Program-made: the position numbers and the translations under genes | Notes under the pieces: generated by a model | Database searches by the model: none | What the model saw: only the letters and a program-made list of their open reading frames with translations | Told to the model about the DNA's origin: nothing | Shown here: positions 16,631 to 52,994 of the stretch, in pieces | Position numbering within the stretch: the first letter of the stretch is position 1 | Layout: every line of letters starts with the position of its first letter | From: Apus apus | Taxonomy: Eukaryota > Chordata > Aves > Apodiformes > Apodidae | NCBI RefSeq assembly: GCF_020740795.1 | Contig: NC_067312.1 | Coordinates: 50,921,905 to 50,985,904 of the forward strand | Length of the DNA: 64,000 nucleotides | Reading direction: 5' to 3'

Positions 16631-18540
16631 AATTAAAAAATAACAAGCTTTACAATTCCATCTATACCTTTATGATTCTGGGGTTACAGAATATTCAAGC
16701 TTAGCAATGCTCCTCCTAAAAAGCATTTTTTTCCCCTTTGTTATATTTTCAACTCCTAGGCATAAAAGTGTTGTGGGTTCTTGCTTTCCTGTTCTTTCTG
16801 CTGATTGATCTACCTCTATCTACTGCTGTCTAGCACAAGACTAGGTACCTTAATGACTGATATTTTAATATTAAACTAGTAATTGTTCAAAACAAACATA
16901 AAAAAGGGAATTAATTCCTATTAATGGTCATTTGTCTTTGTGAATGGCAATCCTTAAATAGAAAAGGCTAGTCTCTCAATAGCAGACATCTGCTGTCTAA
17001 ATGGTTCTCTGTATAGTTTTGCTTACTGAAGGTCCTTGGAATTGGCCTTTGTCCTGAACAGTAAATTTCGTTCAAAAGGTTCCTACAAAATGCTTTTTAA
17101 ATCCACAGCACTGCCAACTGCCAAATGTGAGAAATGCTTTCCTCTTCATGGTGTGGAGAATATGAGTCTGCTTAGAAATATAGTTAACAATGCTGACACA
17201 TAATTTATTTTTCATGCATTTACTTGGGGCAACATAAAAGCTTTTCACAGTGAACTGTTGAAGTGCCCCTACAAAAGCACTTCTGAAAATGGTCCATCTT
17301 ACAATGAACATCTGAGAACATGGACCAATGACTAAATAACTTTTTTTTGGTGGGTGAATCTCCCTTAGAACAGGCTGTAACTTTTCAGAATGTATCTTCA
17401 GTATGATCACCTTGTTCATTTGCCAGACTCTTGAATTAGACCTGCTGATTTTTTATGGCTCCATACAGTTTTTTGGTGTCTTTCTGGCATACGAACTAAC
17501 GTTTCCTGATTGAAGGCCAAAAGTGATTTGTGTACGTGTGTCAAACATTCAGTACTATGGAGTAATAGTCTGATGATCATCCGAACCGGCTCTCAAAAAC
17601 TAAACTCCAAATATAATCCTCAGATGAGTGACTGGCCAGCAGGCTGAAAAGACGAGAAAGCAGATTATTTCAAAGGCTAAATTAAGAAACATAATCTAAT
17701 CCACTACTTTCATGCTACCACAGTATGCCATTCACCCTTTTTCAGTGAACTCCCCTTCAGGCACACAGGTAAATCCCCCTGTTCACTTCTGAAAAGGGTA
17801 GTTGCAGCAGCACAAGATGCAATAGAATGGAAAGAAAAGGTCATAGCTACGGCAAATTTCTGCTCATGTCTAAACAGCAAATGCTTCCTCATGTCACAAT
17901 TCAGAGCAGGTACAGCCAGGTCTCTGAAGAGCCATAACTAATTTTGCTTTCCTCTTTTATCTCCATATCCTGTACAAGGCAATTAGCTCTAGAGTCTGAT
18001 ACCATGGCTTGTTTTGCCTTTCATGGAGACAAATGGTGTATAAGCCGAAGTTTCCTTCTCTGCTAGCAGTGCCACAGGTGTTCAGCCACAGGGGCCAGGG
18101 AGGAGCAACAGCTGCAAAAGCGGCACAGCCGCTGCTTGCAGTGCTCTCAGCATACCTCTGAGCTGGTCAGGCTCACACTGGGCAGATACACTCCCCACTT
18201 TTGTTCTGTGGAGATAGTCCTGATTGCAGCACTTCAGCACAAAGGTGCAGCTATTAGTCAAACACATATATTCATTTTGTTACCTCAAGGAACCACAGGA
18301 CTGTGACTGGTATATGATGACCGATGTTGTTTTATTTTCTTCAAGTTGTTTTGATTTGGCTGTTTATGATTTCTTCAACAGAGATGCCATAGGAAACCCT
18401 GAGTAAAAAAATATAAACAAAGAGTTGCTACCTCATACTGTTCTTCTGTTTTCAGTCTTCTTGAATGAGATGCACTGTATGATTTATTAGCTTTAAACTT
18501 TGGTTGTTTTATTGTTAAAACTCTGCACCTGACACAAATG

Positions 18541-18883
18541 AATCATGGAATCACAGAATTATTTGGGTTGGGAGGGATCTTTAAAGATTATCTACTCCAA
18601 CCTCCCTGCCATAGTCAGGGCCATCTTCTACTAGATCAGGTGGCTGAAAGCCACATCCAGCCTGGCCTTGAACACTCCAGGGAGCTTCTCTGAACAGCCT
18701 GTTCCAGGGTCTCACAACCCTCATAATAAAAAAAGTCTTCCCTTATTTCCTGTCTAAAACTACCCTCTTTCAGTTGAAAACTGTTGCATTTTGTTCTGTA
18801 ACTACAGGCATTCATAAAAAGCGTCTCTACATCTTTCTTAAAAGCAAGCTGCCTTTAAGTGTTGAAAAGCCAAAAAAGGTCCC
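18541..18883 (-). mobile_element. CR1 LINE copy 4, antisense, interrupted by the tandem array
   Basis: The sequence begins with the reverse complement of the CR1 tail (ATCATGGAATCACAGAATT) and continues through the usual 3' region: CTCCAACCTCCCTGCCA, GCCTGTTCCAGGGTCTCACA, then CTACATCTTTCTTAAAAGC and GTGTTGAAAAGCC. The similarity stops in mid-element at about 18,883, where the first CAGCACACCCG unit of the array begins. The array edge therefore lies at a CR1 breakpoint, either the element's own 5' truncation point or a break made when the array formed. Confidence 0.9.
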
Positions 18884-20900
18884 AGCACACCCGCAGCACA
18901 GCACACCCGCAGGACAGCACAGCTGCAGCACACCCGCAGGACCCGCAGCACACCCGCAGCACACCCGCAGGACAGCACACCCGCAGGACAGCACACCCGC
19001 AGGACCCGCAGCACACCCGCAGCACACCCGCAGCACACCCGCAGGACCTGCAGCACACCCACAGCACACCCGCAGGACCCGCAGCACACCCGCAGCACAC
19101 CCGCAGCACAGAACACCCGCAGGACCCGCAGCACACCCGCAGCACACCCGCAGCGAACACGCAAGATATCTGCAGCACACCCGCAGCACACCCGCAGGAC
19201 AACGCACCCGCAGGACCCGCAGCACACCTGCAGCCCACCTGCAGGACAGCAAACCCGCAGGACAGCACACCCGCAGGACACCCGCAGGACCCGCAGCACA
19301 CCCGCAGCACACCCGCAGCACACCCGCAGCACACCCGCAGGACAGAACACCCGCAGGACCCACAGCACACCTGCAGCACACCCGCAGCACACCCTCAGCA
19401 CAACCACAGGATAGCACACCCGCAGGACCCGCAGAACACCCGCAGCACACCCGCAGGACAGAACACCCGCAGTACCCGCAGCACACCCGCAGCGCACCCG
19501 CAGGACAGCACACCCACAGCACACCCGCAGAACACCCGCAGCACACCCGCAGGACACGCAGCACACCCGCAGCACACCCGCAGGACAGAACACCCGCAGG
19601 ACCCGCAGCACACCCACAGCAGACCCGCAGCGGACACGCAAGACATCCGCAGCACACCCGCAGCACAGGCGCAGGACAACACACCCGCATAACAACGCAC
19701 ACCCGCAGGACCCGCAGCACACCCGCAGCACACCCGCAGGACAGCACACCCGCAGGACAGCACACCCGCAGCACACCCGCAGGATAGCACACCCTCAGGA
19801 CCCGCAGCACACCCACAGCACACCCACAGCACACCCACAGCACACCCGCAGCACACCTGCAGGACAGAACACCCGCAGGACCCGCAGCACACCCGCAGCA
19901 CACCCTCAGCACACCCGCAGGATAGCACACCCGCAGGACCCGCAGAACACGCACAGCACACCTGCAGGACCCGCAGCACACCCGCAGCACACCCGCACCA
20001 CACCCGCAGGACAGAACACCCGCAGGACCCGCAGCACACCCGCAGGACAGCACACCTGCAGCACAACCGCAGCACACCCGCAGCACACCCGCAGGACAGC
20101 ACATCCGCAGGACAGCACACCCGCAGCACACCTTCAGCACAGCACACCCGCAGCACACCCGCAGGACCCGCAGCACACCGGCAGCACACCCGCAGGACAG
20201 CACACCCGCAGGACAGCACACCCGCAGTACACCCGCAGCACAACTGCAGGACCCGCAGCACACCCGCAGCACACCCGCAGTACATCACACCCGCAGGACA
20301 GCACACCTGCAGCATACCCGCAGCACACCCGCAGGACAGCACATCCGCAGCACCCCCAGCACACCCGCAGCACACCACACCCGCAGGACCTGCAGCACAC
20401 CCGCAGCACACCCGCAGCGCCAGCACACCCACAGCACACCTGCAGCACACCCGCAGCACAGCACACCCGCAGCACACCCGCAGGACAGCACACCCGCGGC
20501 ACACCCGCAGAAGGGGAGCACACCCTCAGGACAGTACACCCGCAGCACACCGGCAGCACAGCACACCCGCAGCACACCCGCAGCACAGCACACCCGCAGC
20601 ACAGCACACCCGCAGCACACCCGCAGCACAGCACATCCGCAGCACCCGCAGCACACCTGCAGGACAGCACACTCGCAGCACACCCGCAGGACAGCACACC
20701 TGCAGCACACCCACAACACAAACGCAGCACCCACAGCACACCCGCAGCACACCCGCAGCACCTGCAGCACACCCACAGCACACCCGCAGCACACCCGCAG
20801 CACAAACGCAGCACCCACAGCACACCCGCAGCACACCCGCAGCACACCCGCAGCACCTGCAGCACACCCACAGCACACCCGCAGCCCACTCGTAGGACAG
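18884..20900. repeat. Array left zone: irregular 9/11/16-mer mixture
   Basis: Units are mixed without an obvious long period. Variants private to this zone occur, such as GCAGCGAACACGCAAGATA at about 19,150 and the related GCAGCGGACACGCAAGACA near 19,629, which suggest an older local duplication of about 480 bp. The 9-mer CAGGACCCG is common here. This is the more diverged edge of the array. Confidence 0.7.
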
Positions 20901-21679
20901 CACACCCGCAGCACACCTGAAGCACACCCGCAGGACAGCACACCCGCAGCACACCCGTAGGACCCGCAGCACACCCGCAGGAGAGCACACCCTCAGCACC
21001 CACAGCACACCCGCAGCACAGCACACCCGCAGCACACCCGCAGGACCCGCAGCACACCCGCAGCACAGCACACCCGCAGCACACCCGCAGGACAGCACAC
21101 CCGCAACATACCTGCAGCACACCTGCAGGACCCGCAGCACACCCGCAGGACAAAACACCTGGAGGACCCACAGCACACCCGCAGGACAGCACACCCGCAG
21201 GACAGCACACCCGCAGCACACCCGCAGGACAGCACACCCACAGCACACCCGCAGGACCCACAGCACACCCGCAGCGCACCCGTAGGACCCGCAGCACACC
21301 CGCAGGAGACCAAACCCGCAGCACCTGCAGCACACCCGCAGCACAGCACACCCGCAGCACACCCGCAGGACCTGCAGCACACAGGTAGCACACCCGCAGG
21401 ACAGCACACCTGCAGCACACCCACAGGACAGCACACCCGCAGCACACCTGCAGGACAGCACACCCGCAACACACCTGCAGCACACCTGCAGGACCCGCAG
21501 CACACCCGCAGGACAAAACACCCGGAGGACCCGCAGCACACCCGCAGGACAGCACACCCGCAGCATACCCGCAGCACACCTGCAGCACACCCACAGCACC
21601 CGCAGCACACCCGTAGGACAGTACACCCGCAGCACCTCTGCAGCACGCCCGCACGACCCGCAGCACACCCGCAGCACAC

Positions 21680-23800
21680 ATGAAGGAGCCGCAGCACACC
21701 CACAGCACACTCACAGCACACCCACAGCACACCCGCAGGACACTAGCAGCACACCCACAGGACAGCACACCCGCAGGACACCCGCAGCACACCCACAGCA
21801 GACCCGCAGCACACCCGCAGCACACCCGCAGGACAGCACACCCGCAGGACAGCACACCCGCAGCACACCCGCAAGACCCGCAGCACACCCGCAGGACAGC
21901 ACACCCGCAGCACACCCGCAGCACAGCACACCCGCAGCACACCCGCAGGACAGCACACCCGCAGGACAGCACACTCGCAGGACAGCACACTCGCAGGATA
22001 GCACACCCGCAGTACACCCGCAGTACACCCGCAGGACAGCACACCCGCAGGACAGCACACCGGCAGCACACCCGCAGGACAGCACACCGGCAGCACACCC
22101 GCAGGACAGCACACCCGCAGGACAGCACACTTGCAGGATAGCACACCCGCAGTACACCCGCAGCACACCCGCAGGACAGCACACCCGCAGGACAGCACAC
22201 CGGCAGCACACCCGCAGCACACTCACAGCACACCCACAGCACACCCGCAGGACACTCACAGCACACCCACAGCACACCCGCAGGACACTAGCAGCACACC
22301 CACAGCACAGCACATCCGCAGCACCCGCAGCACACCTGCAGGACAGCACACTCGCAGCACACCCGCAGGACAGCACACCTGCAGCACAACCGCAGCACAC
22401 CCGCAGCACACCCACAACACAAACGCAGCACCCACAGCACACCCGCAGCACACCCGCAGCACACCCGCAGCACCCACAGCACACCCGCAGCACCCACAGC
22501 ACACCCGCAGCACACCCACAGCACACCTGAAGCACACCCGCAGGACAGTACACCCGCAGCACACCCGTAGGACCCGCAGCACACCCGCAGGAGAGCACAC
22601 CCTCAGCACCCGCAGCACACCCGCAGCACAGCACACCCGCAGCACACCCGCAGGACCCGCAGCACACCCGCAGCACACCCACAGGACAGCACACCCGCAG
22701 CACACCCGCAGGACAGCACACCCGCAACATACCTGCAGCACACCTGCAGGACCCGCAGCACACCCGCAGGACAAAACACCTGGAGGACCCACAGCACACC
22801 CGCAGGACAGCACACCCGCAGGACAGCACACCCGCAGCACACCCGCAGGACAGCACACCCACAGCACACCCGCAGGACCCACAGCACACCCGCAGCACAC
22901 CCACAACACAAACGCAGCACCCACAGCACACCCGCAGCACACCCGCAGCACACCCGCAGCACACCCGCAGCACCCACAGCACACCCGCAGCACCCACAGC
23001 ACACCCGCAGCACACCCACAGCACACCTGAAGCACACCCGCAGGACAGTACACCCGCAGCACACCCGTAGGACCCGCAGCACACCCGCAGGAGAGCACAC
23101 CCTCAGCACCCGCAGCACACCCGCAGCACAGCACACCCGCAGCACACCCGCAGGACCCGCAGCACACCCGCAGCACACCCACAGGACAGCACACCCGCAG
23201 CACACCCGCAGGACAGCACACCCGCAACATACCTGCAGCACACCTGCAGGACCCGCAGCACACCCGCAGGACAAAACACCTGGAGGACCCACAGCACACC
23301 CGCAGGACAGCACACCCGCAGGACAGCACACCCGCAGCACACCCGCAGGACAGCACACCCACAGCACACCCGCAGGACCCACAGCACACCCGCAGCACAC
23401 CCACAGCACACCCGCAGCACAGCACACCCGCAGCACACCCGTAGGACCCGCAGCACACCCGCAGGAGACCAAACCCGCAGCACCTGCAGCACACCCGCAG
23501 CGCAGCACACCCGCAGGACCCGCAGCACACAGGTAGCACACCCGCAGGACAGCACACCTGCAGCACACCCACAGGACAGCACACCCGCAACACACCTGCA
23601 GCACACCTGCAGGACCCGCAGCACACCTGCAGGACAAAACACCTGGAGGACCCGCAGCACACCCACAGGACAGCACACCCGCAGCATACCCGCAGCACAC
23701 CTGCAGCACACCCACAGCACCCGCAGCACACCCGTAGGACAGTACACCCGCAGCACACCCGCAGCACGCCCGCACGACCCGCAGCACACCCGCAGCACAC
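21680..23800. repeat. Higher-order block 1 (2,121 bp)
   Basis: The block is bounded by the rare landmark ATGAAGGAGCC at 21,680 and 23,801. It contains a doubled segment: the landmark GGAGAGCACACCCTCAGCAC occurs twice, about 501 bp apart (near 22,591 and 23,092). Its length differs from the following 2.45-kb blocks, which indicates unequal exchange. Confidence 0.8.
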
Positions 23801-26256
23801 ATGAAGGAGCCGCAGCACACCCACAGCACACTCACAGCACACCCACAGCACACCCGCAGGACACTAGCAGCACACCCACAGGACAGCACACCCGCAGGAC
23901 ACCCGCAGGACAGCACACCCGCAGCACACCCGCAGGACAGCACACCCGCAGGACAGCACACCCGCAGGACAGCACACCGGCAGCACACCCGCAGGACAGC
24001 ACACCCGCAGCACACCCGCAGGACAGCACACCCGCAAGACAGCACACCCGCAGGATAGCACACCCGCAGTACACCCGCAGCACACCCGCAGGACAGCACA
24101 CCCGCAGGACAGCACACCGGCAGCACACCGGCAGCACACCCGCAGGACAGCACACCCGCAGCACACCCGCAGCACACCCGCAGGACAGCACACCCTCAGG
24201 ACAGCACACCCGCAGCACACCCGCAAGACCCGCAGCACACCCGCAGGACAGCACACCCGCAGCACACCCGCAGGACAGCACACCCGCAGCACACCCGCAG
24301 CACAGCCGCAGCACACCCGCAGGACAGCACACCCGCAGGACAGCACACTCGCAGGATAGCACACCCGCAGTACACCCGCAGTACACCCGCAGTACACCCG
24401 CAGGACAGCACACCCGCAGCACACCCGCAGGACAGCACAGCCGCAGGACAGCACAGCCGCAGGATAGCACACCCGCAGTACACCCGCAGCACACCCGCAG
24501 GACAGCACACCCGCAGGACAGCACACCAGCAGCACACCGGCAGCACACCCGCAGGACAGCACACCCGCAGCACACCCGCAGCACACCCGCAGGACAGCAC
24601 ACCCGCAGGACAGCACACCGGCAGCACACCCGCAGGACAGCACACCGGCAGGACAGCACACCCGCAGCACACCCGCAGCACACCCGCAGGACAGCACACC
24701 CTCAGGACAGCACACCCGCAGCACACCCGCAAGACCCGCAGCACACCCGCAGGACAGCACACCCGCAGCACACCCGCAGGACAGCACACCCGCAGCACAC
24801 CCGCAGCACACCCGCAGGACAGCACACCCGCAGGACAGCACACCCGCAGGACAGCACACCCGCAGTACACCCGCAGCACACCCGCAGGACAGCACACCCG
24901 CAGGACAGCACACCGGCAGCACACCGGCAGCACACCCGCAGGACAGCACACCCGCAGCACACCCGCAGCACACCCGCAGGACAGCACACCCGCAGGACAG
25001 CACACCGGCAGCACACCCGCAGGACAGCACACCGGCAGCACACCCGCAGGACAGCACACCCGCAGGACAGCACACTTGCAGGATAGCACACCCGCAGTAC
25101 ACCCGCAGCACACCCGCAGGACAGCACACCCGCAGGACAGCACACCGGCAGCACACCCGCAGCACACTCACAGTACACCCACAGCACACCCGCAGGACAC
25201 TCACAGCACACCCACAGCACACCCGCAGGACACTAGCAGCACACCCACAGCACAGCACATCCGCAGCACCCGCAGCACACCTGCAGGACAGCACACTCGC
25301 AGCACACCCGCAGGACAGCACACCTGCAGCACAACCGCAGCACACCCGCAGCACACCCACAACACAAACGCAGCACCCACAGCACACCCGCAGCACACCC
25401 GCAGCACACCCGCAGCACACCCGCAGCACCCACAGCACACCCGCAGCACCCACAGCACACCCGCAGCACACCCACAGCACACCTGAAGCACACCCGCAGG
25501 ACAGTACACCCGCAGCACACCCGTAGGACCCGCAGCACACCCGCAGGAGAGCACACCCTCAGCACCCGCAGCACACCCGCAGCACAGCACACCCGCAGCA
25601 CACCCGCAGGACCCGCAGCACACCCGCAGCACACCCGCAGGACAGCACACCCGCAGCACACCCGCAGGACAGCACACCCGCAACATACCTGCAGCACACC
25701 TGCAGGACCCGCAGCACACCCGCAGGACAAAACACCTGGAGGACCCACAGCACACCCGCAGGACAGCACACCCGCAGGACAGCACACCCGCAGCACACCC
25801 GCAGGACAGCACACCCACAGCACACCCGCAGGACCCACAGCACACCCGCAGCACACCCACAGCACACCCGCAGCACAGCACACCCGCAGCACACCCGTAG
25901 GACCCGCAGCACACCCGCAGGAGACCAAACCCGCAGCACCTGCAGCACACCCGCAGCGCAGCACACCCGCAGGACCCGCAGCACACAGGTAGCACACCCG
26001 CAGGACAGCACACCTGCAGCACACCCACAGGACAGCACACCCGCAACACACCTGCAGCACACCTGCAGGACCCGCAGCACACCTGCAGGACAAAACACCT
26101 GGAGGACCCGCAGCACACCCACAGGACAGCACACCCGCAGCATACCCGCAGCACACCTGCAGCACACCCACAGCACCCGCAGCACACCCGTAGGACAGTA
26201 CACCCGCAGCACACCCGCAGCACGCCCGCACGACCCGCAGCACACCCGCAGCACAC
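23801..26256. repeat. Higher-order block 2 (2,456 bp)
   Basis: The block is bounded by ATGAAGGAGCC at 23,801 and 26,257. Its first 1.4 kb is dominated by the 16-mer. Its last 1.05 kb is a mixture of 9- and 11-mers carrying the landmarks GGAGAGCACACCCTCAGCAC (near 25,547) and GGAGACCAAACCCGCAG (near 25,919). Block 4 repeats it almost exactly. Confidence 0.9.
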
Positions 26257-27752
26257 ATGAAGGAGCCGCAGCACACCCACAGCACACTCACAGCACACCC
26301 ACAGCACACCCGCAGGACACTAGCAGCACACCCACAGGACAGCACACCCGCAGGACACCCGCAGGACAGCACACCCGCAGCACACCCGCAGGACAGCACA
26401 CCCGCAGGACAGCACACCCGCAGGACAGCACACCGGCAGCACACCCGCAGGACAGCACACCCGCAGCACACCCGCAGGACAGCACACCCGCAGGACAGCA
26501 CACCCGCAGGATAGCACACCCGCAGTACACCCGCAGCACACCCGCAGGACAGCACACCCACAGCACACCCGCAGGACCCACAGCACACCCGCAGCACACC
26601 CGCAGGACCCGCAGCACACCCGCAGCACACCCACAGGACAGCACACCCGCAGCACACCCGCAGGACAGCACACCCGCAACATACCTGCAGCACACCTGCA
26701 GGACCCGCAGCACACCCGCAGGACAAAACACCTGGAGGACCCACAGCACACCCGCAGGACAGCACACCCGCAGGACAGCACACCCGCAGCACACCCGCAG
26801 GACAGCACACCCACAGCACACCCGCAGGACCCACAGCACACCCGCAGCACACCCACAACACAAACGCAGCACCCACAGCACACCCGCAGCACACCCGCAG
26901 CACACCCGCAGCACACCCGCAGCACCCACAGCACACCCGCAGCACCCACAGCACACCCGCAGCACACCCACAGCACACCTGAAGCACACCCGCAGGACAG
27001 TACACCCGCAGCACACCCGTAGGACCCGCAGCACACCCGCAGGAGAGCACACCCTCAGCACCCGCAGCACACCCGCAGCACAGCACACCCGCAGCACACC
27101 CGCAGGACCCGCAGCACACCCGCAGCACACCCACAGGACAGCACACCCGCAGCACACCCGCAGGACAGCACACCCGCAACATACCTGCAGCACACCTGCA
27201 GGACCCGCAGCACACCCGCAGGACAAAACACCTGGAGGACCCACAGCACACCCGCAGGACAGCACACCCGCAGGACAGCACACCCGCAGCACACCCGCAG
27301 GACAGCACACCCACAGCACACCCGCAGGACCCACAGCACACCCGCAGCACACCCACAGCACACCCGCAGCACAGCACACCCGCAGCACACCCGTAGGACC
27401 CGCAGCACACCCGCAGGAGACCAAACCCGCAGCACCTGCAGCACACCCGCAGCGCAGCACACCCGCAGGACCCGCAGCACACAGGTAGCACACCCGCAGG
27501 ACAGCACACCTGCAGCACACCCACAGGACAGCACACCCGCAACACACCTGCAGCACACCTGCAGGACCCGCAGCACACCTGCAGGACAAAACACCTGGAG
27601 GACCCGCAGCACACCCACAGGACAGCACACCCGCAGCATACCCGCAGCACACCTGCAGCACACCCACAGCACCCGCAGCACACCCGTAGGACAGTACACC
27701 CGCAGCACACCCGCAGCACGCCCGCACGACCCGCAGCACACCCGCAGCACAC
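26257..27752. repeat. Higher-order block 3, shortened (1,496 bp)
   Basis: The block has the same boundaries as blocks 2 and 4 (ATGAAGGAGCC at 26,257 and 27,753), but most of the 16-mer-rich part is missing. Only about 300 bp of it remain before the mixed 9/11-mer part starts. This fits an internal deletion or unequal crossover. Confidence 0.88.
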
Positions 27753-30203
27753 ATGAAGGAGCCGCAGCACACCCACAGCACACTCACAGCACACCCACAG
27801 CACACCCGCAGGACACTAGCAGCACACCCACAGGACAGCACACCCGCAGGACACCCGCAGGACAGCACACCCGCAGCACACCCGCAGGACAGCACACCCG
27901 CAGGACAGCACACCCGCAGGACAGCACACCGGCAGCACACCCGCAGGACAGCACACCCGCAGCACACCCGCAGGACAGCACACCCGCAGGACAGCACACC
28001 CGCAGGATAGCACACCCGCAGTACACCCGCAGCACACCCGCAGGACAGCACACCCGCAGGACAGCACACCGGCAGCACACCGGCAGCACACCCGCAGGAC
28101 AGCACACCCGCAGCACACCCGCAGCACACCCGCAGGACAGCACACCCTCAGGACAGCACACCCGCAGCACACCCGCAAGACCCGCAGCACACCCGCAGGA
28201 CAGCACACCCGCAGCACACCCGCAGGACAGCACACCCGCAGCACACCCGCAGCACAGCCGCAGCACACCCGCAGGACAGCACACCCGCAGGACAGCACAC
28301 TCGCAGGATAGCACACCCGCAGTACACCCGCAGTACACCCGCAGTACACCCGCAGGACAGCACACCCGCAGCACACCCGCAGGACAGCACAGCCGCAGGA
28401 CAGCACAGCCGCAGGATAGCACACCCGCAGTACACCCGCAGCACACCCGCAGGACAGCACACCCGCAGGACAGCACACCAGCAGCACACCGGCAGCACAC
28501 CCGCAGGACAGCACACCCGCAGCACACCCGCAGCACACCCGCAGGACAGCACACCCGCAGGACAGCACACCGGCAGCACACCCGCAGGACAGCACACCGG
28601 CAGGACAGCACACCCGCAGCACACCCGCAGCACACCCGCAGGACAGCACACCCTCAGGACAGCACACCCGCAGCACACCCGCAAGACCCGCAGCACACCC
28701 GCAGGACAGCACACCCGCAGCACACCCGCAGGACAGCACACCCGCAGCACACCCGCAGCACACCCGCAGCACACCCGCAGGACAGCACACCCGCAGGACA
28801 GCACACCCGCAGTACACCCGCAGCACACCCGCAGGACAGCACACCCGCAGGACAGCACACCGGCAGCACACCGGCAGCACACCCGCAGGACAGCACACCC
28901 GCAGCACACCCGCAGCACACCCGCAGGACAGCACACCCGCAGGACAGCACACCGGCAGCACACCCGCAGGACAGCACACCGGCAGCACACCCGCAGGACA
29001 GCACACCCGCAGGACAGCACACTTGCAGGATAGCACACCCGCAGTACACCCGCAGCACACCCGCAGGACAGCACACCCGCAGGACAGCACACCGGCAGCA
29101 CACCCGCAGCACACTCACAGTACACCCACAGCACACCCGCAGGACACTCACAGCACACCCACAGCACACCCGCAGGACACTAGCAGCACACCCACAGCAC
29201 AGCACATCCGCAGCACCCGCAGCACACCTGCAGGACAGCACACTCGCAGCACACCCGCAGGACAGCACACCTGCAGCACAACCGCAGCACACCCGCAGCA
29301 CACCCACAACACAAACGCAGCACCCACAGCACACCCGCAGCACACCCGCAGCACACCCGCAGCACACCCGCAGCACCCACAGCACACCCGCAGCACCCAC
29401 AGCACACCCGCAGCACACCCACAGCACACCTGAAGCACACCCGCAGGACAGTACACCCGCAGCACACCCGTAGGACCCGCAGCACACCCGCAGGAGAGCA
29501 CACCCTCAGCACCCGCAGCACACCCGCAGCACAGCACACCCGCAGCACACCCGCAGGACCCGCAGCACACCCGCAGCACACCCGCAGGACAGCACACCCG
29601 CAGCACACCCGCAGGACAGCACACCCGCAACATACCTGCAGCACACCTGCAGGACCCGCAGCACACCCGCAGGACAAAACACCTGGAGGACCCACAGCAC
29701 ACCCGCAGGACAGCACACCCGCAGGACAGCACACCCGCAGCACACCCGCAGGACAGCACACCCACAGCACACCCGCAGGACCCACAGCACACCCGCAGCA
29801 CACCCACAGCACACCCGCAGCACAGCACACCCGCAGCACACCCGTAGGACCCGCAGCACACCCGCAGGAGACCAAACCCGCAGCACCTGCAGCACACCCG
29901 CAGCGCAGCACACCCGCAGGACCCGCAGCACACAGGTAGCACACCCGCAGGACAGCACACCTGCAGCACACCCACAGGACAGCACACCCGCAACACACCT
30001 GCAGCACACCTGCAGGACCCGCAGCACACCTGCAGGACAAAACACCTGGAGGACCCGCAGCACACCCACAGGACAGCACACCCGCAGCATACCCGCAGCA
30101 CACCTGCAGCACACCCACAGCACCCGCAGCACACCCGTAGGACAGTACACCCGCAGCACACCCGCAGCACGCCCGCACGACCCGCAGCACACCCGCAGCA
30201 CAC
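27753..30203. repeat. Higher-order block 4 (2,451 bp), near copy of block 2
   Basis: The block starts at ATGAAGGAGCC at 27,753 and ends before the copy at 30,204. Landmarks fall 3,952 to 3,947 bp after their partners in block 2. The minus-strand translation of the last 729 bp (29,506-30,234) equals those at 23,103, 25,559 and 27,055. The block 2 plus block 3 pair is thus the ancestor or product of a composite repeat of about 3.95 kb. Confidence 0.9.
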
Positions 30204-31199
30204 ATGAAGGAGCCGCAGCACACCCACAGCACACTCACAGCACACCCACAGCACACCCGCAGGACACTAGCAGCACACCCACAGGACAGCACACCCGCAG
30301 GACACCCGCAGGACAGCACACCCGCAGCACACCCGCAGGACAGCACACCCGCAGGACAGCACACCCGCAGGACAGCACACCGGCAGCACACCCGCAGGAC
30401 AGCACACCCGCAGCACACCCGCAGGACAGCACACCCGCAGGACAGCACACCCGCAGGATAGCACACCCGCAGTACACCCGCAGCACACCCGCAGGACAGC
30501 ACACCCGCAGGACAGCACACCGGCAGCACACCGGCAGCACACCCGCAGGACAGCACACCCGCAGCACACCCGCAGCACACCCGCAGGACAGCACACCCTC
30601 AGGACAGCACACCCGCAGCACACCCGCAAGACCCGCAGCACACCCGCAGGACAGCACACCCGCAGCACACCCGCAGGACAGCACACCCGCAGCACACCCG
30701 CAGCACAGCCGCAGCACAGCCGCAGGACAGCACACCCGCAGGACAGCACACCCGCAGGACAGCACACTCGCAGGATAGCACACCCGCAGTACACCCGCAG
30801 TACACCCGCAGTACACCCGCAGGACAGCACACCCGCAGCACACCCGCAGGACAGCACAGCCGCAGGACAGCACAGCCGCAGGATAGCACACCCGCAGTAC
30901 ACCCGCAGCACACCCGCAGGACAGCACACCCGCAGGACAGCACACCAGCAGCACACCGGCAGCACACCCGCAGGACAGCACACCCGCAGCACACCCGCAG
31001 CACACCCGCAGGACAGCACACCCGCAGGACAGCACACCGGCAGCACACCCGCAGGACAGCACACCGGCAGGACAGCACACCCGCAGCACACCCGCAGCAC
31101 ACCCGCAGGACAGCACACCCTCAGGACAGCACACCCGCAGCACACCCGCAAGACCCGCAGCACACCCGCAGGACAGCACACCCGCAGCACACCCGCAGG

Positions 31200-33480
31200 A
31201 CAGCACACCCGCAGCACACCCGCAGCACACCCGCAGGACAGCACACCCGCAGGACAGCACACTCGCAGGACAGCACACTCGCAGGATAGCACACCCGCAG
31301 TACACCCGCAGGACAGCACACCCGCAGGACAGCACACCCGCAGGACAGCACACCCGCAGGACACCCGCAGGACAGCACACCCGCAGGACACCCGCAGGAC
31401 AGCACACCCACAGGACAGCACAGCCGCAGGATAGCACACCTGCAGTACACCCGCAGCACACCCGCAGGACAGCACACCCGCAGGACAGCACACCGGCAGC
31501 ACACCGGCAGCACACCCGCAGGACAGCACACCCGCAGCACACCCGCAGCACACCCGCAGGACAGCACACCCGCAGCACACCCGCAGCACACCCGCAGGAC
31601 AGCACACCCGCAGGACAGCACACCCGCAGCACACCCGCAGGACAGCACACCGGCAGCACACCCGCAGGACAGCACACCGGCAGGACAGCACACCCGCAGT
31701 ACACCCGCAGTACACCCGCAGGACAGCACACCCGCAGGACAGCACACCCGCAGGACAGCACACCCGCAGCACACCCGCAGGACAGCACACCCGCAGGACA
31801 GCACACTCGCAGGATAGCACACCCGCAGTACACCCGCAGCACACCTGCAGGACAGCACACCCGCAGGACAGCACACCCGCAGGACACCCGCAGGACAGCA
31901 CACCCGCAGCACACCCGCAGGACAGCACACCCACAGGACAGCACAGCCGCAGGATAGCACACCTGCAGTACACCCGCAGCACACCCGCAGGACAGCACAC
32001 CCGCAGGACAGCACACCCGCAGCACACCCGCAGGACAGCACACCCACAGGACAGCACAGCCGCAGGATAGCACACCTGCAGTACACCCGCAGCACACCCG
32101 CAGGACAGCACACCCGCAGGACAGCACACCCGCAGGACAGCACACCGGCAGCACACCGGCAGCACACCCGCAGGACAGCACACCCGCAGCACACCCGCAG
32201 CACACCCGCAGGACAGCACACCCGCAGCACACCCGCAGCACACCCGCAGGACAGCACACCCGCAGGACAGCACACCGGCAGCACACCCGCAGGACAGCAC
32301 ACCCGCAGCACACCCGCAGGACAGCACACCGGCAGCACACCCGCAGGACAGCACACCGGCAGGACAGCACACCCGCAGTACACCCGCAGTACACCCGCAG
32401 GACAGCACACCCGCAGGACAGCACACCCGCAGGACAGCACACCCGCAGCACACCCGCAGGACAGCACACCCGCAGGACAGCACACTCGCAGGATAGCACA
32501 CCCGCAGTACACCCGCAGCACACCTGCAGGACAGCACACCCGCAGGACAGCACACCCGCAGGACACCCGCAGGACAGCACACCCGCAGCACACCCGCAGG
32601 ACAGCACACCCACAGGACAGCACAGCCGCAGGATAGCACACCTGCAGTACACCCGCAGCACACCCGCAGGACAGCACACCCGCAGGACAGCACACCCGCA
32701 GCACACCCGCAGGACAGCACACCCACAGGACAGCACAGCCGCAGGATAGCACACCTGCAGTACACCCGCAGCACACCCGCAGGACAGCACACCCGCAGGA
32801 CAGCACACCCGCAGGACAGCACACCGGCAGCACACCGGCAGCACACCCGCAGGACAGCACACCCGCAGCACACCCGCAGCACACCCGCAGGACAGCACAC
32901 CCGCAGCACACCCGCAGCACACCCGCAGGACAGCACACCCGCAGGACAGCACACCCGCAGCACACCCGCAGGACAGCACACCGGCAGCACACCCGCAGGA
33001 CAGCACACCGGCAGGACAGCACACCCGCAGTACACCCGCAGTACACCCGCAGTACAGCACACCCGCAGGACAGCACACCCGCAGCACACCCGCAGGACAG
33101 CACACCCGCAGGACAGCACACTCGCAGGATAGCACACCCGCAGTACACCCGCAGCACACCCGCAGGACAGCACACCCGCAGGACAGCACACCCGCAGGAC
33201 AGCACACCGGCAGCACACCCGCAGGACAGCACACCCGCAGGACAGCACACCCGCAGGACAGCACACCCGCAGCACACCCGCAGCACACCCGCAGGTCAGC
33301 ACACCCGCAGCACACCCGCAGCACACCCGCAGGACAGCACACCCGCAGCACACCCGCAGGACAGCACACCCGCAGCACACCCGCAGCACACCCGCAGGAC
33401 AGCACACCCGCAGCACACCCGCAGGACAGCACACCCGCAGCACACCCGCAGCACACCCGCAGGACAGCACACCCGCAGCA
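31200..33480. repeat. Array right zone: 16-mer-rich, few CpG-decay variants
   Basis: CAGGACAGCACACCCG dominates. A local tandem duplication of about 0.68 kb is visible: the variant CACACTCGCAGGATAGCAC followed by a CACCTGCAGG unit occurs at 31,802 and again at 32,481. The phrase CACCCACAGGACAGCACAGC recurs near 31,406, 31,927, 32,041, 32,618 and 32,721. The last 480 bp have essentially none of the CACCTGCAG or CACCCACAG variants common further left. Confidence 0.8.
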
Positions 33481-33564
33481 CCCCCGCCCCGCCGGGGCCC
33501 CCGCGCGGGCCGCCCCCCCGCAGCAGGTGCGCGCCCCACGGGGGGCGGGGCACCACCCGCCCTC

Positions 33565-33574
33565 GCGCATGCGC
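33565..33574. promoter_or_regulatory. NRF1 binding site (palindrome)
   Basis: GCGCATGCGC is the core NRF1 palindrome and lies about 60 bp upstream of the predicted start site, the usual position for this factor in CpG-island promoters. Binding itself is inferred. Confidence 0.75.
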
Positions 33575-33619
33575 GGCGCCGCCGCTGCGGCCGCCACCGC
33601 CCGGGCTGCGCCTGCGCCC

Positions 33620-33630
33620 TCCCCTTTCCC
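33620..33630 (+). promoter_or_regulatory. Predicted polypyrimidine (TCT-like) initiator
   Basis: TCCCCTTTCCC fits the YC-TTTYY pattern, which would place the start site at a C near 33,624. The YY1 element then falls about 14 bp downstream, where such elements are typically found. Such initiators are typical of translation-related genes, but this alone does not identify the gene. Confidence 0.45.
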
Positions 33631-33637
33631 CTCGGGC

Positions 33638-33648
33638 AAGATGGCGGC
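33638..33648 (+). promoter_or_regulatory. YY1 element
   Basis: AAGATGGCGGC matches the YY1 consensus in the orientation normally found just downstream of start sites, so it supports a + strand transcript beginning about 10-20 bp upstream. The ATG inside it can also act as an upstream start codon. Confidence 0.75.
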
Positions 33649-33676
33649 GGGGAGAGCGGTGCGGGGCCGGGAGTGA
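33641..33676 (+). CDS. Upstream open reading frame, 11 codons
   Basis: The ATG inside the YY1 element opens a frame of 11 codons (MAAGRAVRGRE) ending in TGA at 33,674-33,676. The context is GGCAAGATGG, with A at -3 and G at +4, which is strong. If the start site is at about 33,624 the leader before this ATG is only about 17 nt, so leaky scanning is likely. It is listed as a possible regulatory frame, not as a functional peptide. Confidence 0.35.
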   Translation: MAAGRAVRGRE

Positions 33677-34034
33677 GCGGGGCTGCTGAGATCCCGGCTG
33701 GCGCGGGGAGGGCCCCGGCGCCGCGGCTGAGGCGCCCCTGAGGGCGGCGGCTGCCGGGCAGGGGCCCGGCCCGCGTGCCAGCTGGTGAGGAGGGCAGGGC
33801 TGCCCCGGAGCCCGCCGTCAGGATGAGGCGCTGGGGGGACGGGGCAGGGACCGGCCCTCGCCGGTGAGGAGCGGGCGGCTGTCCCCGTGTGCGCACCCAC
33901 CGGCTGCCCCGTCACACCGCCCCGTCCGGGCGGCGCAGCCCTTGGCTCCGCGGGTCCGTGCGGGCGGCGGCAGCGGCCGGAGGCGTCGGAGAAGTCGCGG
34001 CGGCTCTGCCGGGCGGGAGGAGGAAGGCAGGCAG

Positions 34035-36574
34035 GTGAGTGAGTGAGTGGGTGCCAGGCGGCCCGGAGCGCTTCACCGGGCCCTTCGCCGCCGCTTCCTC
34101 GGGCAGCCCGCGAGTAGCCGTGAGCAGGCGTCCTTCTGGCCGGTGTGCTCCTCTTCCTCGGGGCGCCCGCGGCCCTGGCACCGGGGCCGCCGCGCTGGGA
34201 CAGGGCTGAGTCCCGCAGGTGCTTCCTCCCCCGGCGGAAGCAGCCTGTTCTGGTGGCTGTTACTCAAAGCCAGTAGTGGCGCTTTTAAATCTCATTTATT
34301 TGTTTATTTATTTATTCCAATTTGACTTCATTTAGTGGTTTTGTTCATCCAAGTCTGCCAGGAAGTATTCACACACCCAGTAGGTGAAATATCACTGGGA
34401 TATGAAGATAAAAAGGCAACCTAGGTGCTAAGAAGAGCTCAGCTACTGTCTTCTATGAGAAAAAAAAAAAAAATTTAAATCTCTTGACCTGCAAAAAACT
34501 TTTCTTTGATTGTTAGATGAGTCTTTAACATCAATCCTCAGAATTCACAGGGCTCATTTCTTCAGTTAAGTGTTCTCTATGACCTCTTGTGATGAGGGAT
34601 GGATCTGTGCAGTTGTCTGTGACTGCAGCCTCAGTTTCTGAAATCATGCTAGTCTCAGAGGCCATTCATAGGTTCTGAAGTGATTGAATATAAAGCAATT
34701 CTGTTTTCATTAAATGTTAGCTTTCTTAAGAAACTGCAGAGTAATGTGTACTAAACTGTATAACTGATTTGTGTCATTGACCAGCCCCTCTTCATAATAA
34801 CTAAACAATATGATGGTAGTGGTCTGTAGAACTAGGAAGAATAGCCTTCTGGTAAAGGTGTCATAAAAGCTTTTTCTGGAAAATAAAATAAGGTTCTACA
34901 GAAACTGCTTTCATGTACTTGCTTCTATGAACTACTGATTGAAAAGGGGAGCTTTTTCTGTATACTAGCGAAGAACCACAGAGTTGAAAGCTTTGCTTCA
35001 GGAATATTGCTAACATTTTGGTAAGTTAAGGCTGCAGCAAGAGTTAAGGAAGGTTAGGTCACTAGTTGAACTGCAGAGAAACGAAACCTTTTTCCTGTTC
35101 AGGTATTGCAACCTTATATTTTTAAACTGTGTTTGCAAAAAATTGTGTGCCAGATGGATTCATCCAATCCTAAGAACTTAAGAAACATTAGTCTTGAAGT
35201 GAATGTGAGGAGATCATTGTTATGGCTTCAGCTGCAACTTCCTTGATGTGTTTTTTTTCCTTTACTTATGGTGAAAGCTATTTATAGAACAGTTCAGCAC
35301 AGTGAGAAACCTTACAAATACTTGCTCTCCTTGGATGCTTTTTGTTGAAAAAAAAAATATGGTAAAAGGTATTTATTCCTAGTGGTATAAAGGAAAAGAA
35401 AACCACCAACAAACCAAAACCAAAATGAAACTGTGGAAATACAAATGGTGACCTAGTAGATGAAATATTTTTTTATTTACACATAATGCAATAGGAAACA
35501 CTATTGAACGTAAGAACATACCTTACTATGTGTCTTATTTCCGTGCAGTGAAGTCCATGCTCTAGTATGCCAAGTTTTAATACCTTAGCATCTGTTCAAC
35601 AAAATGTACATCAAGTAATTAACTTCTCAACTCAGTTTCTGTAGAATGTACAATGGCTATTATCAACAGTGTGCTGTGCTGTTGTATGCAGAGGGTTTCC
35701 AATACTGTTTTGGTCTGTATTAACCCTAAACTGGTAACTGTTGGCCCCATCAAATTCCTGCATTTTGTATTTACTGTGTGTATTTTGTGTTTACTTGTGT
35801 ATGCTTTCAAAAATATATATATTTGTGTGTGTCTATACTCTGCATATAGATTTCTAGATTATTTCTACAATCTTCTTATATCTATCTATTCTCTTGAGTA
35901 AGAGAGTTACAGCCTTTTATGATTGTATTTAAAGCTAAATAGCACAGTTAACACTAGAACTTCCTTAATCCTGTAATGATCAAGAAAGAAAATTTTTATT
36001 TGTCTAACTTTATTTTAGCTAGACTCTGAAAATTCTTTCTTTGAGTAACAGCAGAATGTTTTTGGTTGTGTTATTTTAGTTAACTTGTGAAGTCTTTGTT
36101 GTATGTTTAAAAATGCAGCATGGAGCTACTAAATGAATTTATATCGATTGTGCTGGGAAGTGGAATCCAGTACCTGTAACTGATCTTCAGATGGATCTTT
36201 TAGTTGCTTGCTGTTCAAGTTCATATTATTTTCATCACTCACTGCCAGTATTAGTAAAGCAAAAAACACTTCTACTGTGTAGTCTTAGATTTGACTCCTC
36301 CAGGTTCACATACCAGACTTCTAATGTTTTAATATTTAATTCCCCACACTTGGGATTTTGGTCCTAAAACCCTTGAATTATGACTACAAGTGTGACTTTG
36401 TTAAAACGGTGTTAAATTAACCTGTTACAGTGATTTCAATGGCAAGTCATGCTGTGCTGTTGTAGAACTTGAGTTTTTGGGTTATTGCCATTCAGGTCTC
36501 ATTGGAAGTTTGCATCTATTAAGGCTGGATGATAAAGCTACTAGGCAGCAAGCATATGCACAGAATGCACCTGC
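34035..36574 (+). other. Probable first intron of transcript A, proximal part
   Basis: After the donor at 34,035 the sequence stays CpG-rich to about 34,260 and then becomes AT-rich. No recognisable exon is seen. Simple tracts include an A run near 34,460 and a TA/TG microsatellite near 35,811-35,831. Confidence 0.5.
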
Positions 36575-51080: not shown

Positions 51081-51391
51081 GTCATGTGTGCGCACTAGGT
51101 GGGAACAGATTTTGGATGGCTCAGGCTTTCAGCTGTGTGGGCCAGCGGGGCCGACGGCAGCGCCGCGCCGGGGAAGGCAGGCCGGCGTCCTCGCAGGGAG
51201 CTGCGCCTGAGCCTTCCTTGTCTCCTTCCATTACCTTCCCGGAGGGGCGTGTCTTGCTTCCCGGCTCCCAGCCCTGGGCCGCGGCTGGCGCCGGGAGAGC
51301 GGCGGCTGCTTCCGGGCGGCGGTGGGGTGCGGGGCAGCCCGGCGCTGGACCCGCGGGACCGACCCACCGCGCCCCCCGGGGCCGTGCGCGG

Positions 51392-51409
51392 CCCCCCCCC
51401 CCCCCCCCC
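51392..51409. repeat. C18 homopolymer in the promoter
   Basis: Eighteen consecutive C residues lie within the island, followed by GGGGCGG. Such runs are error-prone in sequencing and length-variable in populations. Confidence 0.9.
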
Positions 51410-51467
51410 GGGGCGGTGCGGGGCTCCCGGCCTGGCTGCGGCGGCTCCTCCCGCGGCCTCGGCGTGC

Positions 51468-51487
51468 GGGGCGGGGCGGGGCGGGCG
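51468..51487. promoter_or_regulatory. GC-box cluster (Sp1/KLF type)
   Basis: GGGGCGGGGCGGGGCGGGCG contains four overlapping GC boxes about 150 bp upstream of the candidate start codon. Confidence 0.75.
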
Positions 51488-51535
51488 CAGCTGTTCCCGC
51501 GGCGGGGCGGGCGCGGTCGCCGCCACCCGCGCCCC

Positions 51536-51585
51536 ATTGGCTGCGGCGCCGCGCCGGCCGCACGTGACCGGCGGGGCCGCATTGG
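51536..51585. promoter_or_regulatory. CCAAT / E-box / CCAAT cluster
   Basis: ATTGG (inverted CCAAT, the NF-Y site) lies at 51,536-51,540 and again at 51,581-51,585, 45 bp apart. CACGTGAC at 51,561-51,568 lies between them. CACGTGAC is an E-box of the USF/MiT type, similar to the sites found in lysosomal and autophagy gene promoters. The close packing is typical of a core promoter, with the start site expected within about 60 bp to the right. Confidence 0.7.
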
Positions 51586-51647
51586 CCGCGGCGCTGGCGC
51601 AGCCGGTGGGTGCGGGCGGGGCCGGCGGGCCGGGCTGCGGCGGCGGG

Positions 51648-51669
51648 ATGGAGGCAGAGCGGCCATGGG
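51648..51669 (+). CDS. Predicted first coding exon of gene B (partial CDS)
   Basis: An ATG in strong context (GGCGGGATGG, G at -3 and +4) opens a frame reading MEAERPW, with one extra base of the next codon before a consensus donor (TGGG then GTGAGTGC at 51,670). The exon thus contributes 22 coding bases and splices in phase 1. It lies 63 bp downstream of the nearer CCAAT box, so the 5' UTR would be short. The rest of the gene would lie to the right; no acceptor exon was recognised before 64,000, so the first intron may exceed 12 kb. I do not recognise the gene from seven residues. Alternatives are that translation starts elsewhere or that the exon reads through the donor into a GC-rich frame, which seems less likely. 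Confidence 0.5.
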
Positions 51670-52994
51670 GTGAGTGCGGCGGCGGCGCCCGGGGCCGCGG
51701 CGGCCGCGCTGGGCAGGCTGGGGCGGCTCCCTGCGCCTGTGACAGGGAGACGGCGGCGCCGCCGGGGAGGGGGAGGAAAGCGGCTTTTGTGGCTGAAAAA
51801 AGAAAAAACGGGGCTGCGGAAAAAGGCGCGGGGGAGGAAAACCCCGCGCCCGGGGAGGCGGCCGGCCGTGCGCGGCGGGGAGCGGGGCCGAGCCCCAAGC
51901 CCTCCCCGCCGGCCAGGGGCGCAGAGCCCCGCACCGCGGGCTGCAGGGCTGGGAGAGCCCTGCCCGGCGTGCCGAGGTGCCCTCCCGCGGCGGCGGGGCC
52001 GCCCGGCGGCGGGGCGCTGCCCGCGGTGGCACCGGCCCCGCTTTGTTGGTGCGGGGGGCGGCGGGGGCTGCGCTGCCGCAGCGCGTCTGGCCGCGAAGGG
52101 CGGGCGGGGAGCGGGGGCCGTGGTGCGCCCGCGGCTCGGCCGGCTCCTTACACATGGATTTAACATGACAAAGAGATGGTTGGGTCCGCGGCTTAACCTG
52201 AATCCTGTGGGGAATCATAATGCATTATGTATGAAGCAGTGGGTCCTTTCTTTCCCTTTGTCAGATGCGCAGCTTTTATTCTAGTAATTAGGTCATTGCC
52301 AGCAGAGCCCTCCTTGGTTTTTGCAAAAACGCCTAGAGATTTTTTGGAAGGCACATATGCTGCCGAATTATTTCGTCCCATTCGTTGTTCGACTCAAGAC
52401 CTAAAATTCTACCCGTTGTCTTACATGGAGGACCCTGGCTATGAGCTGTAAGGAGCATTTTTCATTTGGGAGGATTTTCTTCAGGGGATTGGTGGAGCCC
52501 GGTTTTGACTTGATTTGGGTTGTCATTCACTGAAAGATGGTTTCTAAGGACGTAGCAAGAAATAGGCAGCTGCTTGGTTTGCCTGCAAGTCTTTTCAATA
52601 AATTACTGTGCATACATCAGCCATACCGTTTAGATCAATCTCAGCTTTTAAATATTTATCCTTTGCTATTCTGTTGAAATAACTTCTTTCTTGTTACTGT
52701 TTAGTCAGTTTTTCTGTTACTTCAGTTAATAGATTTATGAATGTTTTGTCAAAATTAAGAGTTCTTTGAAAGTCAATGTAAACATACGTACTGAAAGTAG
52801 TTTCCTGGAACCTGACTCTTGTGTATTTTTAAGGACATTCACAGTAACTGGTAAAATATTTATTTCTCCTTCTCAGTTCTGTAAAATACGGTGATGCACA
52901 AAAGGTTTGATGAAGACAAATCTAATAACTTACTGAATTTAAATTTCTGCTTTATAGTAAACATCCCCTCAAAACATTTTTTTTTTTTTTAATA
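51670..52994 (+). other. Probable start of intron 1 of gene B
   Basis: The donor is followed by about 500 bp of CpG-rich sequence and then AT-rich DNA. An open frame at 52,227-52,451 follows an acceptor-like tract (CTTTCTTTCCCTTTGTCAG ending at 52,264) and is moderately protein-like. Joining it to the MEAERPW exon gives a stop within a few codons, so it is not the next exon in that frame. No other exon is recognised. Confidence 0.45.

Follow-up and report, generated by a model that had tools for sequence, protein, structure and literature searches.

A 14.6-kb single-locus minisatellite beside the likely promoter 1B of Z-linked APC in Apus apus

GC-rich tandem repeats at promoters are known from two human systems that resemble the case described here. 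The insulin-linked polymorphic region, a variable number tandem repeat (INS VNTR), consists of 14-bp units located just upstream of the promoter (PMC11336075); it forms G-quadruplexes and i-motifs, and regulation of INS by this repeat has been reported. The CSTB promoter dodecamer (EPM1), a 12-bp GC-rich unit at the promoter or 5' untranslated region, is prone to expansion, from 2–3 units in normal alleles to 30–75 or more in disease (PMC11006399). Furthermore, in some human minisatellites, the mutationally active end coincides with a recombination hotspot (PMC2599865). Here we analyze a 64,000-nucleotide stretch of Apus apus contig NC_067312.1 (positions 50,921,905 to 50,985,904 of the forward strand; hereafter, the window), which contains a 14.6-kb array of short CpG-bearing units, i.e., a known kind of repeat, a minisatellite, in an unusual place, beside what is most likely promoter 1B of the Z-linked gene APC.

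The array shares some features with each of these systems and differs from them in others. As in the INS VNTR, the motif ACACCCC is found on the C-rich strand, whereas the predicted quadruplex potential is low; the INS VNTR is also much shorter. In contrast to the few dodecamer units of normal CSTB alleles, about 1,100 units are present in this reference genome. Interspersed unit variants, internal duplications and ends that differ in age are shared with hypervariable human minisatellites such as MS32 and CEB1, for which germline mutation was measured along with the hotspot coincidence (PMC2599865), whereas in the present case instability is deduced from a single allele. The location is of interest because promoter 1B is sensitive: in humans, GAPPS, a stomach polyposis and cancer syndrome, results from substitutions of one base in the YY1 site of this promoter (PMC12975475, PMC11078748). 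A 14.6-kb CpG-rich repeat that is probably unstable, ends about 85 bp from the putative promoter core and is present in one copy in females would be a natural test of whether such proximity is harmless.

A minisatellite confined to one locus

Tandem Repeats Finder (TRF), comparison with randomized controls and unit tiling all bear out the tandem array of 11-, 16- and 9-bp units that was recognized in a preliminary description of this DNA. TRF reports a single array at 18,883–33,481, which we delimit as 14,598 bp (18,884–33,481). At a lag of 11 nucleotides, the match fraction is 0.636, compared to a mean of 0.352 (standard deviation 0.005, maximum 0.364) in 200 first-order Markov controls, which confirms that the array is real and far above chance. 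Cutting at each CAG and merging short CAGGA-type pieces with the next piece yielded 1,102 units. Three lengths, 11 bp (555 units), 16 bp (350) and 9 bp (93), account for 998 of them and for 12,542 of the 14,598 bp; the main units are CAGCACACCCG (11 bp), CAGGACAGCACACCCG (16 bp) and CAGGACCCG (9 bp). The remaining 104 units have other lengths, and isolated pieces of 25–34 bp are present, so the earlier characterization of the array as uninterrupted holds at the scale of units rather than to the letter. Similarly, the statement that nearly every unit has one CpG was somewhat generous: 844 units contain exactly one, 35 contain at least two and 223 contain none.

The array as a whole has a GC content of 0.678 and, with 929 CpGs, an observed to expected CpG ratio of 0.64, i.e., it exceeds the CpG island thresholds of 0.55 and 0.6, respectively, with several 500-bp array windows falling to 0.56–0.57. 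The plus strand is C/A-rich (A 0.302, C 0.463, G 0.215, T 0.020) and the minus strand is G/T-rich. With tandem units in the range of about 10–60 bp at one locus, interspersed unit variants and internal duplications, the array fits the class of minisatellites, with the qualification that 93 units are just 9 bp long and the 350 16-bp units are 5+11 composites.

The genome search covered 1.10 Gb in 110 contigs, the window being located on a contig of 77.8 Mb (C36). All 41 matches to an exact 41-bp probe from the array fall inside the array, in a single orientation, and the reversed control gave none; these counts are lower bounds, and an exact probe would miss diverged units elsewhere. The concentration of all matches at one locus defines a single-locus minisatellite, and on the same grounds we rejected dispersed satellite DNA, which would occupy many loci. 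When 95 bp of unit sequence was used in a general DNA search, in which very common words are skipped, the array itself was absent from the results and three matches were reported at one other place (L001, discussed below).

Two other candidate identities were considered. Open reading frames of up to 1,342 aa run on both strands (18,884–34,263), which is explained by one strand having almost no T and the other almost no A; the 11- and 16-bp units shift the frame, and we rejected a coding repeat. Because such a composition yields few stop codons, gene prediction at this locus may produce spurious repeat proteins. Comparison of the window with 4,227 Rfam families gave no match at the gathering score. 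The left edge of the array is reached by a fragment (18,540–18,880) that we take to be the 3' end of a CR1-like element. Reverse transcriptase pieces, presumably also of CR1 type, are found in the window, and RVT_1 was detected by Pfam in one of the two window open reading frames scanned; together with the sex-chromosome genes discussed below, these pieces point to avian DNA.

APC, its candidate promoters and the Z chromosome

The gene downstream of the array, on the plus strand, is identified as APC from its exons and domains. The start-codon exon (64,268–64,402 in window numbering) matches all 45 residues of a human APC N-terminal probe, and a 2,240-aa open exon (118,700–125,419, plus strand, same numbering) ends with SGSYLVTSV and contains matches to 11 Pfam families in 1,766 residues, including APC_r, SAMP, Arm_APC_u3 and APC_basic. 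REEP5 follows on the opposite strand, presumably the same gene order as in human.

Apart from the array, two CpG islands precede the APC start codon within the window, at 33.5–34.3 kb and 51.1–52.2 kb. The first (33,482–34,260, plus strand, edges approximate) adjoins the array and contains a predicted non-coding first exon (about 33,626–34,034) with the donor GTGAGT at 34,035; an acceptor is present directly before the start-codon exon. An NRF1-type site, GCGCATGCGC (33,565–33,574, plus strand), is located 84 bp from the array end, its name following the preliminary description. A YY1-type site, AAGATGGCGGC (33,638–33,648, plus strand), follows at 157 bp. These distances are in line with the previously given values of about 145 bp to the predicted start and about 85 bp to the NRF1 site. 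The AAGAT of AAGATGGCGGC fits human c.-195A, c.-192A and c.-191T, the positions at which the GAPPS variants c.-195A>C, c.-192A>G and c.-191T>C hit the YY1 element of promoter 1B (PMC11078748; a similar list is given in PMC12975475). The second island (51,100–52,200, plus strand, edges approximate) contains CACGTGAC at 51,561, with an inverted CCAAT box on either side (ATTGG at 51,536 and 51,581), in line with the suggested involvement of USF1/2 and a CCAAT-binding factor at human APC (PMC8103321). A run of 18 C residues is also present in this island (51,392–51,409).

In human APC, promoter 1B is followed by 1A about 30.4 kb downstream (PMC8103321). The same succession of an upstream CpG-island candidate promoter with a YY1-type site, a second candidate promoter and the start-codon exon is observed here, the human layout being taken from the literature, with a shorter spacing of about 17.9 kb between AAGATGGCGGC and CACGTGAC. 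Judging from gene order, exon content, spacing and motifs, the first island is most likely APC promoter 1B and the second 1A. The earlier suggestion that the array adjoins a real promoter is thus supported and sharpened to a particular one. The excerpts of three papers on the human promoter mention no array of such kind (PMC8103321, PMC11078748, PMC12975475), and in a literature search of titles and abstract starts, no title among the matches listed refers to an array at avian APC, which is not proof of absence.

APC is assigned to the Z chromosome by the content of contig C36. Five DM-domain matches were detected in the genome, three of which (one partial) cluster at 28.37–28.46 Mb of this contig, the other two being on C8; the trio is consistent with the DMRT1-3-2 cluster known from the avian Z. 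For spindlin, C36 and C33 have three matches each, with equal scores, and CHD1-type matches are present on C36, C33, C11 and C19. Because both spindlin and CHD1-type matches occur on C36 and C33, the latter probably represents the W. The match of the APC probe on C36 is 100%, and C25 has a 51% relative, probably APC2; there is no third match among those listed, and the search of this assembly revealed no APC copy on the W. Given that a probable W is part of the assembly, the Z sequence probably comes from a female and would be hemizygous.

Growth history and methylation traces

Self-comparison of the array reveals a 3.95-kb block in two copies (22,627–26,559 and 26,579–30,506; offset 3,952, then 3,947) that differ by one mismatch in 3,931 aligned bp and one 5-bp step. 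Closer to the promoter, at 31,600–33,014, a duplication with an offset of 679 (31,600–32,335 vs. 32,279–33,014) shows two mismatches in 736 bp. This internal structure indicates that the array grew by repeated tandem duplication. The proposal that array length varies between individuals gains indirect support, as far as instability is concerned, from these near-identical duplications, which come from one assembly and one allele.

The two ends of the array differ. For 100-bp windows sampled every 50 bp, the mean identity to the nearest ungapped copy in the array is lowest in the two distal bins, which extend up to 21.0 kb (0.862 and 0.867), reaches 0.960 at 21.0–22.4 kb and ranges over 0.985–0.999 in the five promoter-ward bins. 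None of the windows sampled at the promoter-distal end (18,884–21,000) is matched identically and without gaps by another part of the array. Identity decreases with the distance from the promoter (Spearman -0.51; the windows overlap, so that no simple p value applies). The notion of an active end would be too strong a description of these data, which show a diverged distal end.

Single changes within units of the distal part (18,884–22,430) comprise 35 CpG transitions at two sites and 16 non-CpG C-to-T changes at four sites, i.e., CpG C-to-T or G-to-A changes have about 4.4-fold the per-site rate of non-CpG C-to-T. This CpG decay suggests germline methylation of the distal array and weakens the earlier view of a single large CpG domain that extends unbroken from the island. 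Near the promoter (within 2.2 kb), 7 of 150 units carry CpG transitions and 41 of 150 carry other single changes; beyond 11 kb, the figures are 35 of 196 and 39 of 196 (bin sums). When distinct 58-bp contexts are counted, CpG transitions relate to other changes as 3:18 near the promoter and as 34:38 far from it (Fisher p 0.010), with bins chosen post hoc, contexts that are partly dependent and amplified variants that inflate the class of other changes. These counts give hints that the unmethylated zone of the promoter might reach into the array in the germline, so that a methylation boundary would lie inside the array; recent amplification is another possible cause of the deficit of CpG transitions near the promoter.

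Possible drivers of array growth

Birds lack PRDM9, and their recombination tends to CpG islands; in the zebra finch, both crossovers and non-crossovers are enriched there, with 23.7% of crossovers within 100 bp of an island vs. 17.5% expected (PMC12047795). We favor, with moderate confidence, the possibility that the single-locus minisatellite expanded by tandem duplication and homogenization beside the CpG-island promoter 1B of APC, with recombination or break repair at the island as the driver. Breaks near the island would be mended off sister or homologous arrays, which would add and homogenize units and leave the far end behind as an old remnant, and the array would be mainly a by-product of the promoter rather than its regulator. 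We count in favor of this scenario the single locus identified by the exact probe, the near-identical blocks, the promoter-ward rise in identity, the APC exons and domains, and three related arrays at CpG islands, together with the island enrichment in the zebra finch and the hotspot coincidence in some human minisatellites.

The related arrays were identified with a 23-bp probe (two 12-bp units, up to two mismatches), which gave 29 matches at 13 places and none with the reversed control. At three of the 10 places where the sequence was read, an array of at least 100 bp of related motif is present: 314 bp inside another CpG island on the same Z contig, about 8.3 Mb from the APC array (L001:1501–1814, C36 at about 59.28 Mb), with nearly the same unit, whether by descent, conversion or convergence (CGGGGTGTGCTG compared to CGGGTGTGCTG in the APC array); 544 bp of GC-rich units beside a CpG island on C13 (L047:1422–1965); and 159 bp of such units beside a CpG island on C19 (L032:1368–1526). 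Thus, all three lie inside a CpG island or within about 25 bp of one. If several bird promoters carry arrays of this kind, these would be a sequence record of CpG-island recombination without PRDM9.

Several observations count against this scenario. The largest recent duplication (22.6–30.5 kb) is in the middle of the array, away from the promoter end, and unit entropy falls and rises across 12 bins without a monotonic trend (3.58 in the distalmost bin, 2.66 at 23.7 kb, 3.81 at 25.0 kb and 2.33 next to the promoter), so that the polarity is coarse. The other seven places that were read have no array of at least 100 bp of the motif, and the matches lie in a CpG island at three of these and outside islands at four. 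Because the 23-bp probe itself contains a CpG, which favors islands, the association of the related arrays with islands is suggestive only. Finally, replication slippage alone could yield the same structure.

The last point leads to an alternative that we consider rather unlikely, namely, that the array arose by slippage or unequal sister exchange and lies next to the promoter by coincidence, through a GC-rich seed, without a causal link. Seed-like words indeed occur in the promoter flank itself (CCCGCAGCAGG at 33,517), and the constitutively haploid minisatellite MSY1 stays diverse without interallelic exchange (PMC2599865). A coincidence fits less well with the diverged end being distal and the promoter side homogenized, and with the further related arrays at CpG islands. 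A transcriptional origin appears still less probable: divergent antisense RNA would run from the promoter through the array and, being G-rich and devoid of polyadenylation signals, form long R-loops that cause breaks and expansion. The GC skew of about -0.37 on the plus strand over 14.6 kb implies that leftward RNA would be G-rich, and on the minus strand, counted from 33,480, the first AATAAA appears only at 14,967 nt and the first ATTAAA at 16,611 nt. In the APC array and in two of the three related arrays (L001 and L047), the orientation of the G-rich strand is outward from the island; the third (L032) has the opposite orientation with respect to its nearest island. Moreover, the scarcity of signals follows from composition, and 11 GTGAGT donor-like words on the minus strand argue against unspliced read-through.

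A regulatory role, in which the array would act on promoter 1B through its length, through methylation of its CpGs or through CACCC-type sites numbering in the hundreds, as the INS VNTR does for INS, seems quite unlikely. The array lies within 1 kb upstream of the predicted start site, ending next to the NRF1- and YY1-type sites, and contains 722 CACACCC words, a core that we presume to be KLF/SP-like. The human INS VNTR, 363 bp upstream of the start site, regulates transcription (PMC11336075), and GC-rich CSTB expansions seem to lower transcription without hypermethylation (PMC11006399). Nevertheless, quadruplex-forming units of the INS type are not predicted: the G4Hunter mean is 0.58, with 0.5% of 25-nt windows at 1.2 or above, compared to 2.29 for the insulin unit, and there are no four-run quadruplex matches with loops of 1–7 nt, although 169 are found with loops of 1–15 nt. 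In two stretches folded as single-strand DNA, the C-rich strand folds worse than shuffled sequences (z 1.75 and 3.35) and the G-rich strand weakly better (z -1.17 and -1.50), with no clear structure in the four sequences folded. That part of the array length, chiefly the doubled 3.95-kb block, is an assembly artefact we regard as very unlikely: the near identity of the two copies would fit such an error, whereas the probable hemizygosity of the Z argues against false duplication from two alleles.

An extended version of the recombination scenario, which we offer as a speculation of distinctly low probability, posits that CpG-island promoters of birds breed their own minisatellites via recombination and that in the APC array germline methylation changes at a boundary about 2 kb inside, with the array tuning the dose of a Z-linked tumor suppressor. 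Were this the case, every length allele would be exposed in females, without a W copy of APC.

Over a region of 264 kb around the window, TRF detected five arrays of at least 80 bp, and the two GC-rich ones, the APC array and a GGGCA array, are located at CpG islands, with the qualification that GC-rich arrays can themselves raise CpG island calls. The GGGCA array, 507 bp long and outside the window (139,092–139,598 in window numbering; L019), lies in a CpG island between APC and REEP5, which, judging from gene order, is perhaps the promoter of SRP19.

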